A stretch of 49,738 nt of DNA, from positions 1 to 49,738 of the forward strand of contig JABHKE010000136.1 in the NCBI GenBank assembly GCA_018692355.1, in the 5' to 3' direction. The notes beneath the pieces are model-generated. The model saw nothing but the letters and a program-made list of their open reading frames with translations. It ran no database searches and was not told where the DNA came from. Source of the stretch: Fidelibacterota bacterium. Lineage in GTDB: Bacteria; Fidelibacterota; Marinisomatia; Marinisomatales; UBA1611. Position 1 is the first letter of the stretch; every line of letters starts with the position of its first letter. Below, in pieces: positions 13,926 through 16,887 of the stretch. The position numbers were made by a program, and so were the translations under genes.

Positions 13926-14987
13926 TTAAGTAACATTTCTCAAAAATAGTATTTCCAAAAACTTTGAGCCTATTGGGCATTCAATCATTGAATAATCCAT
14001 ACCACCGGGAATTGTAATTGAGTCACCTGTATTTAGTGAAAAAGTATTTTTTTGATCAATTTGTATGTTCAATTTTCCGTTTATAAGAAAAATAAAATGG
14101 AATTCTCCATTTTGAGTTTCTAAAGTTGATTTACTTTGTTCTAATGATCTCACTACTGAAACACGGGCTAATCCATTCGTAGCAGGATAAAATCCAAAAT
14201 CCTGTTTTTCAAATCCGGGATATCGGCACGGACGCCATTTTGCCTTTTTCGCAATATGATGGATAAAATTTTGTCCATTATAATTTCGATCAGGTTTTGT
14301 TTCACCAGTGGGGAGATTCGACTTTGGATCGGTACAGGTCATGTGACTTGCTGGTGAGCTTATCTCCACTACTTCAAACCCATCCGAATTTTCAAGTACC
14401 TGATGTCGGATTTCAGGTGGTTGCAACACGCAGTCACCCGCTTGAAAAATAAATGGACTGCCTTGGTCTTCATAAACCAATTTTGCCCAGCCTTTATTAC
14501 AAAAGATCATTTGAAACCGGATTTTATGAAAATGGACATAATCTGATACAGGCCCTGCTTTTAGAATTCTTATGTGAGATGCAATAAATCGTCCGCCGTA
14601 TCGATCCGGGATGAGGTCTCGATATTCCATTCCGGCCCGGCCGATCTTCCATTGTCCTTCCATCAATCTTGAATATTGGATGGATTGATTTCCTTCTGGA
14701 AGGATATAGGAACCATTTGGTTCATGAAACTGAATTAAAGTTCCATTTGGTGCTGTTAGATTATTGGATTTGGCTCCGGCAATAGAAATGGTTCCAGGAT
14801 GAATTGAATCATCTTTTTTGAAATGGATTCTTAATCCAAATCCATACATTATAGCTTCAGTAGGATCATCCGCCGGATAAATTGATTCCAATTGAAATCC
14901 CACTTTGTCCGAAAAAAATGATACGGTTTCATTTAAATTTCCAGAGGGGAGAACAATTTCAGCAGTTTGAATTTTAGAACCAGACAT
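13926..14987 (-). CDS. Fusion of a glyoxalase-fold (VOC) domain and two cupin domains
   Basis: 353 residues. Residues 1 to about 95 look like a vicinal-oxygen-chelate domain (IQTAEIVLPSGNLNETVSFFSDKVGFQLESIYP, read as beta-alpha-beta; ending LIQFHEPNG). Residues about 130-215 form a cupin with a plausible metal site (DYVHFHKIRFQMIFCNKGWA and PPEIRHQVLE). A second cupin (about 290-345) shows GEFHFIFLINGKLNI and GDSITIPGGMDYSMI. Substrate unknown; such domains act as dioxygenases, isomerases or sensors. Its ATG shares one base with the stop of the AhpD-like gene, so it is the third gene of the APC permease operon. A role in catabolism or detoxification of an imported amino compound is inference only. 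Confidence 0.7.
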   Translation of the reverse strand: MSGSKIQTAEIVLPSGNLNETVSFFSDKVGFQLESIYPADDPTEAIMYGFGLRIHFKKDDSIHPGTISIAGAKSNNLTAPNGTLIQFHEPNGSYILPEGNQSIQYSRLMEGQWKIGRAGMEYRDLIPDRYGGRFIASHIRILKAGPVSDYVHFHKIRFQMIFCNKGWAKLVYEDQGSPFIFQAGDCVLQPPEIRHQVLENSDGFEVVEISSPASHMTCTDPKSNLPTGETKPDRNYNGQNFIHHIAKKAKWRPCRYPGFEKQDFGFYPATNGLARVSVVRSLEQSKSTLETQNGEFHFIFLINGKLNIQIDQKNTFSLNTGDSITIPGGMDYSMIECPIGSKFLEILFLRNVT

Positions 14988-15529
14988 TATTTCATTTCAT
15001 TTTCAAGGTCAACGCCTAATCCTTCTGCTATCCGGTTGATATAATTAAAATAGGAAACAACCTGAGCTGCATCGCTAATTGCATCTTCAGAAAATCCAAT
15101 TCCCGTAAGGGCATCAATATCTAATTTTTGCATATCGCCTGGCGACAGGGTCAATTTTTCTGCCCAGGCACAAAGTGCTTTATCTTTCGCAGTTAGATCT
15201 GCCTTTTTCCAATCTTTCTTTAATTGCTCAGCTAATTCCTTATTACCGACTTCATCCCGGAAGTCATTCCCGTGGGCTTCAATTCAGTATTTGCAATGAT
15301 TCACTTGGGAAACGACTGTGGCAATCATTTCTCGCTGTGCCCGGGACAGTTTCGATTCGCCAAACATGATTGCGAGATACAGCCGCATGGCTTCTTTCAA
15401 TGCAGATGGACTTTGGCTCATAATCTTTAAAATATTAAAAACACGTCCTGATCGCCGAATCCCTTTGTCGTATTCATTTTTGACAATCCCCTCAGCTTGA
15501 TCAATATCAATTGTTTTTATGAAAGTCAT
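14987..15529 (-). CDS. AhpD-like peroxidase-related protein, probable selenoprotein (in-frame UGA = Sec82)
   Basis: Reading from ATG 15529 gives 81 residues ending VNHCKY, then TGA at 15286-15284; the same frame continues without interruption for 98 codons to TAA at 14989-14987. The segment is CKY-UGA-IEAHG, matching the CxxCxxxH active site of AhpD/carboxymuconolactone-decarboxylase-type disulfide reductases with the second Cys replaced by selenocysteine (Cys79, Sec82, His86). The full 180-residue product has normal family length (about 180) and a family-like C-terminal half. A hairpin of bacterial SECIS geometry follows the UGA. AhpD-like CxxU selenoproteins are known from marine metagenome surveys. 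The gene lies 2 bases after the APC permease and overlaps the VOC/cupin gene by one base. The alternative is a nonsense mutation or a sequencing error. Confidence 0.82.
15248..15265 (-). promoter_or_regulatory. Bacterial SECIS-like hairpin behind the UGA codon
   Basis: On the minus strand, GACTTC (15265-15260) pairs perfectly with GAAGTC (15253-15248) around the six-base loop CGGGAT. There are 18 bases between the UGA and the stem and 24 to the loop. A G occupies the second loop position. Published bacterial SECIS models (bSECISearch) require roughly 16-37 bases from UGA to loop and a G among the first two loop bases, both satisfied. SelB binding is inferred. Confidence 0.72.
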
Positions 15530-15531
15530 TA

Positions 15532-16887
15532 TTATTCTATTTCCTCAATAAGGTCTTGATTCATCCTTGCTTCATAATCGAATCCTTCTTTTTTCCCTAG
15601 AGATTTCCCCATCCAATAGATCCCAGTTCCAATAAGCCCTCCAATCAAGACCCAAAGAAATACATTTGGCAGAGTTATGAATGTAAAATATCCCATGGTG
15701 AGTATAACAATTCCACCCATGAGCCAAAGGGCAGGGATAGGTGGCTTGAATTTAGCAGATTCATACAATGATGGGTTTACATAGGGAAGGCTAATTAATG
15801 CGATACCCTGGATCAAATAAATAATAAAAATTCCAACTAATCCTGTATTCAACAGGAAGATTGCAGATTTTGACCAGATGAGTGCAATACAAATCACAGC
15901 GCTAATGATTAAACTAACATAAGGTGTCCGCCAGGTGGGATGAATTTTCGATAAAATTGGTGGCATAAGCCGATCTTCGCTGAAAACAAAGAACATTCTG
16001 GAAGGTACGAGGATGGACCCATTGATACTGGTTAAGAAAGCACTCATGGCGCCAATGGCGACAATGCCCGATCCCCATTTTGGTAAATAAACCCCTGCAG
16101 CATCCGCCATGGCAGATTGTGATGTTGCCAGAGATTCTGCCGGAAGGACACCAAAAGCGACAAATGACATGAGCACGAAGATCACAACCGAAATCAAAAC
16201 ACCGCGAATAAAGATCATGGGCAATGTTCGGGTGGGGTCTTTCGTTTCACCTGCAATCTGGGAGAGAGTCTCGAATCCTGCATAACTGAAAAACAACATG
16301 GGCATAGCTTCCATGAGTCCGCCAATTCCTTTGGGTAAAATCGGATCATAATAGGAAAGATCGACGGCGAATAAACCAGGAAGGACCAATACCAGAATGC
16401 TGATGATTAAAATTCCCAACATGAAAGTTTGGATATGACCATAATGTTTTATTCCAACCATATTTATACCATAGAAAAAAATCAGTGCGATCGAAGCCCA
16501 TACTTTTGGATCTGCGGTGGGATAAAAATAAGTCAAATATTCCCCAAAACTTGTAGACATGAAAGCAATGGCACCAATGAAGGCAAGGAGTTTCATCCAC
16601 ATGGCAATAAACCCCAGATAATAATTTTTGAAGGTTCTGGAAATATGAATGTAGGCACCCCCAGGACGATTACCAAGAGGCGTGGAAACAAATACACTAT
16701 ATGTCAGGGCAGTGCAAATAATAATAGGTGCAAAAAGAAGGTAGGCCAAAGGGACAGAAGATCCGGCAACCGCACCGGCTTCACCTGTAACCCTGAATAT
16801 ACCTGCACCCACCAAAATTCCAATTATGGTGGCATATCCAGAAAGTGGGCCTAAGTCCCGGCGGAGTTTGTTTTGTTTATTTATCAT
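15532..16887 (-). CDS. APC-superfamily amino acid permease
   Basis: 451 residues with about 12 membrane segments. The start ...LGPLSGYATIIGILVGAGIFRVTGEAGAVAG carries the helix 1 glycine-rich unwound segment (GILVGAGIF) typical of APC amino acid transporters; FSYAGFETLSQIAGETKDPTRTLP is the helix 6 segment with the FxxxGFE-type motif. Substrate cannot be told from sequence. First gene of a three-gene minus-strand operon with the AhpD-like selenoprotein and VOC/cupin protein. Confidence 0.88.
   Translation of the reverse strand: MINKQNKLRRDLGPLSGYATIIGILVGAGIFRVTGEAGAVAGSSVPLAYLLFAPIIICTALTYSVFVSTPLGNRPGGAYIHISRTFKNYYLGFIAMWMKLLAFIGAIAFMSTSFGEYLTYFYPTADPKVWASIALIFFYGINMVGIKHYGHIQTFMLGILIISILVLVLPGLFAVDLSYYDPILPKGIGGLMEAMPMLFFSYAGFETLSQIAGETKDPTRTLPMIFIRGVLISVVIFVLMSFVAFGVLPAESLATSQSAMADAAGVYLPKWGSGIVAIGAMSAFLTSINGSILVPSRMFFVFSEDRLMPPILSKIHPTWRTPYVSLIISAVICIALIWSKSAIFLLNTGLVGIFIIYLIQGIALISLPYVNPSLYESAKFKPPIPALWLMGGIVILTMGYFTFITLPNVFLWVLIGGLIGTGIYWMGKSLGKKEGFDYEARMNQDLIEEIE

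Follow-up and report, generated by a model that had tools for sequence, protein, structure and literature searches.

A gene of the AhpD-like family lies in the 49,738-nucleotide stretch of DNA analysed here (the window), and under the standard code its frame ends at codon 82, leaving an apparent 81-residue truncated gene. The question raised by this locus is whether the UGA at codon 82 is a stop or is read as selenocysteine (Sec).

Reading frame and protein family

Read from the minus strand, a detail absent from the initial annotation, the gene has its ATG at 15529, the UGA at 15286-15284 and a TAA at 14989-14987. When TGA was translated as U, codon 82 was the sole interruption of the frame from ATG to TAA, which comprises 81 codons before the UGA, the UGA itself and a further 98 codons, giving a total of 180. 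The TAA and the ATG of the downstream gene share one A, at 14987, which closes the former and opens the latter. Translation thus confirmed the original description of a frame that stops at codon 82 and runs on for 98 codons to a TAA sharing a base with the next ATG. The features of the locus are listed below in the direction of transcription.

15532-16887, minus strand: APC-family amino-acid permease gene, directly upstream with a 2-nt gap (Pfam PF13520, E 1.2e-39)
14987-15529, minus strand: gene for the predicted AhpD-like peroxidase-related selenoprotein, 180 codons from ATG to TAA with UGA as Sec82 (TIGR01926, E 1.4e-45; PDB 6k40, 3c1l)
15284-15286, minus strand: in-frame UGA, codon 82, at the second redox position of CxxU (Cys in distant homologues, 6k40 and 3c1l)
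15248-15265, minus strand: candidate bSECIS hairpin GACUUC-CGGGAU-GAAGUC (pairing kept; synonymous constraint on GAC, TTC, CGG/CGT and GTC)
13926-14987, minus strand: gene for a 353-aa cupin-domain protein, downstream (Pfam Cupin_2; 1-nt overlap with the selenoprotein stop)

In a profile search, TIGR01926 ('peroxidase-related enzyme') matched residues 5-174 of the window protein as one stretch (E 1.4e-45), with homology on both sides of the UGA, and the score of 155.3 bits against a curated cut-off of 81.8 makes the protein a member of this family. Pfam CMD was also matched. The protein is not a member of NF041238 (AhpD_rel_CFYUT; 66.6 bits against a cut-off of 175), which is likewise AhpD-related with a CxxU motif but describes a longer family (357 positions). 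The active-site motif reads HCKY-U-IEAH, and residues E67, C79, U82 and H86 are present with the spacing E-x11-C-x2-U-x3-H, corresponding to the E-x11-CxxC/U-x3-H of TIGR01926. The UGA had been placed at the second position of a CxxCxxxH active site (CKY-UGA-IEAH), and an alignment with homologues had been proposed as a check for Cys at position 82; distant homologues (L036-L040) do carry Cys there, in the form of CHYC, CSYC or CQYC, which bears out the assignment.

The nearest solved relatives were D. radiodurans AhpD (6k40, E 2.9e-28) and M. loti Mlr4105 (3c1l), both of similar length and fold and with the motif E-x11-CxxC-x3-H; their CxxC lies at the place of CKYU, with Cys where the window protein would have Sec. 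A structure model built from four sequences had a mean pLDDT of 72.6 (79-93 per block for residues 61 to 160), and a structure search with this model again returned 6k40 and 3c1l first. The debrominase Bmp8 (6ohj) was also a structural match (E 2.9e-3), and the matches to M. tuberculosis AhpD had E values of 0.2 or worse.

Conservation of UGA82 and a candidate bSECIS hairpin

Codon 82 was UGA in all 22 full-length orthologues, the window gene included, and the frames ran on to 178-191 codons. The orthologues of relatives were 63-85% identical to the window protein, and every full-length close orthologue from relatives of the same genus, family and order had one UGA and no other stop. Because the match to TIGR01926 extends over the residues beyond the UGA and codon 82 is constant in the 22 orthologues, the UGA stands in frame by more than chance. 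The constancy of UGA82 supports the initial annotation, which had argued from the intact downstream coding for selenocysteine rather than decay. On the sequence evidence, the best explanation is that UGA82 is read as selenocysteine, giving a predicted 180-residue product, and we put the probability of this reading at about 0.97. Six further stretches of the window with an in-frame UGA were examined and contained no recognisable motif.

A second paralogue clade, about 40-47% identical, had a UGA at the matching place and was also represented in the own genome, on contig C37. Outside the order (genomes G178-G242), further UGA-bearing members were found at 35-41% identity, two of them with an extra in-frame TAA or TAG.

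Downstream of UGA82, a hairpin with a 6-bp stem and a 6-nt loop (CGGGAU) was observed, the apical loop starting 24 nt past the UGA. In loop size, stem, loop G and spacing it agrees with the bSECIS model, which has a loop of 3-9 nt, a stem of 4-16 bp, a G in the first two loop positions and a distance of 16-37 nt from the UGA (PMC13188914). The energy criterion for a bSECIS is a minimum free energy of -7.5 kcal/mol or lower. A 42-nt segment reached -7.9 kcal/mol but via another fold, the hairpin alone had -5.4 and the hairpin with flanks -6.9 kcal/mol, and single-sequence folding of 65 nt was unremarkable (z -0.49). Folding energy by itself is not convincing as support for the hairpin. Pairing was kept in 99.2% of cells among 20 distinct sequences, compared to 20-56% when the arms were slid. 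The variation consisted of G-U wobble on one side only, and covariation cannot be claimed, since no pair was altered on both sides in the 20 sequences.

As the protein is conserved across the hairpin, synonymous sites are the stronger test. The Phe codon in the hairpin was TTC in 22 of 22 genes (32% elsewhere in the same genes), the Asp codon was GAC in 20/22 (26% background) and the Val codon GTC in 17/22 (16% background), while the Arg codon was only CGG or CGT, retaining a loop G followed by G or U. These four codons had the strongest synonymous bias among invariant residues in a 50-codon stretch, the fourth only just, and the binomial figures for this bias overstate independence because the orthologues are related.

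The paralogue in the same genome (L054; G000:C37:1676-2206, minus strand) has its UGA in CHYU. A putative hairpin there carries the loop AGGUCU at a distance of 17 nt from the UGA, and both the loop and the spacing are shared with E. coli fdhF. In a triloop register, 83% of cells were paired, without covariation, and this putative hairpin is only suggestive.

Selenium machinery and other readings of the UGA

A search for selA, selB, selC and selD had been proposed, and three of the four genes were found. The selA and selB genes adjoin on C63 (G000:C63:20000-28000), with selB over the cut-off. The selD gene is split across two contig ends (G000:C26 and G000:C109) with a near-identical overlap, the few mismatches of which suggest strain variation in the assembly. 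It carries an in-frame UGA of its own (HGSGUACKIG), so SelD itself is likely a selenoprotein. The mutS gene directly follows selB on C63, and a UGA-bearing ORF beside selB proved to be mutS with extra upstream sequence that is not necessarily translated.

The remaining gene, selC for tRNA-Sec, gave no match over the cut-off in the own assembly, which is 86% complete and consists of 215 contigs; the RF01852 matches in this genome were Ser, Leu, Cys, Asp, Tyr and Phe tRNAs. Among the 61 genomes, tRNA-Sec was found in 36, including the same-genus G001 and G003, and selB exceeded the cut-off in 53. The 4.4 kb around the G003 tRNA-Sec had no match in the own assembly, nor did a neighbouring G003 protein, and another G003 stretch matched the window at 69-82% identity. 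An assembly gap is the likely explanation of the missing selC, and its loss with selA, selB and selD kept is unlikely.

Alternatively, the gene could be decaying or of the Cys type, with the UGA a nonsense mutation or a sequencing error. This would fit the standard-code frame, which stops at codon 82, and a frameshifted copy in one relative, but the same UGA with intact downstream frames recurs in 22 genomes, it is kept across genera and families, and synonymous sites 3ʹ of it are constrained, which together leave this explanation very improbable. A frameshift or missing sequence beyond codon 82 in close relatives had been named as a sign against selenocysteine; none was seen in the 22 orthologues, and the one frameshifted copy, in G034 (G034:C20:2718-3261), lies in two frames, by decay or assembly error. 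Even less probable is a general recoding of UGA in the host to an amino acid other than Sec (code 4 or 25). Such recoding would be in keeping with the scarcity of UGA among the terminators of long window ORFs (4/30), but those four ORFs do terminate in UGA, as do 11 of the 22 genes that also have UGA82, so UGA is not simply reassigned; the presence of selA, selB and selD speaks against general recoding as well.

Gene neighbourhood and predicted function

In 15 of 21 relatives the same permease gene lies directly ahead of the AhpD-like gene, at a distance of -4 to 14 nt, and two more relatives have a permease copy within a few kb. The two genes likely form one operon. The downstream cupin gene was found only in closer relatives (L086, L087 and L093).

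If UGA82 is read as selenocysteine, the gene would encode a CxxU-type AhpD-like selenoprotein of TIGR01926 in a Neomarinimicrobiota-like bacterium. The hairpin 3ʹ of UGA82 would recruit SelB with Sec-tRNA, and the UGA would then be decoded as selenocysteine to give an all-helical protein of 180 residues, in which Sec82 stands in for the second Cys of the CxxC pair. M. tuberculosis AhpD has a proton relay of Glu118, Cys130, His132, Cys133 and His137 (PMC3141380). Its relay motif, Glu-x11-Cys-x2-Cys-x3-His (PMC3141380), is the one seen in the window protein, from which it differs in its weak overall similarity, in His132 rather than Tyr and in Cys rather than Sec. By this analogy the active site would consist of Glu67, Cys79, Tyr81, Sec82 and His86, and as these residues are spaced like the AhpD relay, Sec82 would take the place of Cys133. 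We infer that the protein is a peroxidase or reductase of the selenol/thiol kind whose redox residue is Sec82; this residue would likely attack peroxide or a similar substrate. Cys79 may then resolve Sec82 as a selenenyl-sulfide, with cellular thiols completing the reduction.

A selenoprotein with a role other than peroxidase is compatible with Sec insertion: a thiol-disulfide or dehalogenating reductase, or an enzyme processing a compound imported by the permease. The close upstream permease in the 15 relatives points this way, as do the debrominase Bmp8 among CxxC proteins of the same fold (6ohj, E 2.9e-3) and the weak peroxidase activity measured for an AhpD-like relative (PMC3141380). The closest solved relatives are, however, named AhpD or antioxidant proteins, although such names are mostly putative, and in four further relatives, whose upstream sequence extends for 1.2 kb or more, no permease above 60% identity was seen there. 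We regard a role of this kind as a real but lesser possibility. The narrower proposal, that in Neomarinimicrobiota the permease and the selenoprotein make up a dedicated pair of genes, with the selenoenzyme working on the compound that the permease imports and not in general peroxide defence, appears doubtful. To our knowledge, no function on an imported compound together with a permease has been described for AhpD-like selenoproteins.

A 2005 study of the Sargasso Sea described 27 sequences of AhpD-like CxxU selenoproteins (COG2128; PMC1088965), the GOS survey contributed 299 (PMC2398784), and a 2026 review names TIGR01926, CxxU, among selenoproteins (PMC13188914). These proteins belong to the same family and share the CxxU motif, the UGA at the second position and the downstream hairpin (PMC1088965, PMC2398784, PMC13188914). 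As this family has already been published, the window gene is not new in kind; the present case differs in its setting, a Neomarinimicrobiota-like genome with named neighbours. Judged by title, no literature pairing 'selenoprotein' with 'Marinimicrobia' dealt with the AhpD-like family. What the locus adds is modest, namely the upstream permease link and the presence of another UGA-containing paralogue in this genome.

The reading proposed here corrects the annotation from an apparent 81-residue truncated gene to a predicted 180-residue selenoenzyme. It places selenium use in AhpD-like proteins, sometimes as two paralogous copies per genome, in a little-studied and mostly uncultured phylum, and the amino-acid permease so often linked to the gene offers a concrete lead on the role of the AhpD-like selenoprotein family.
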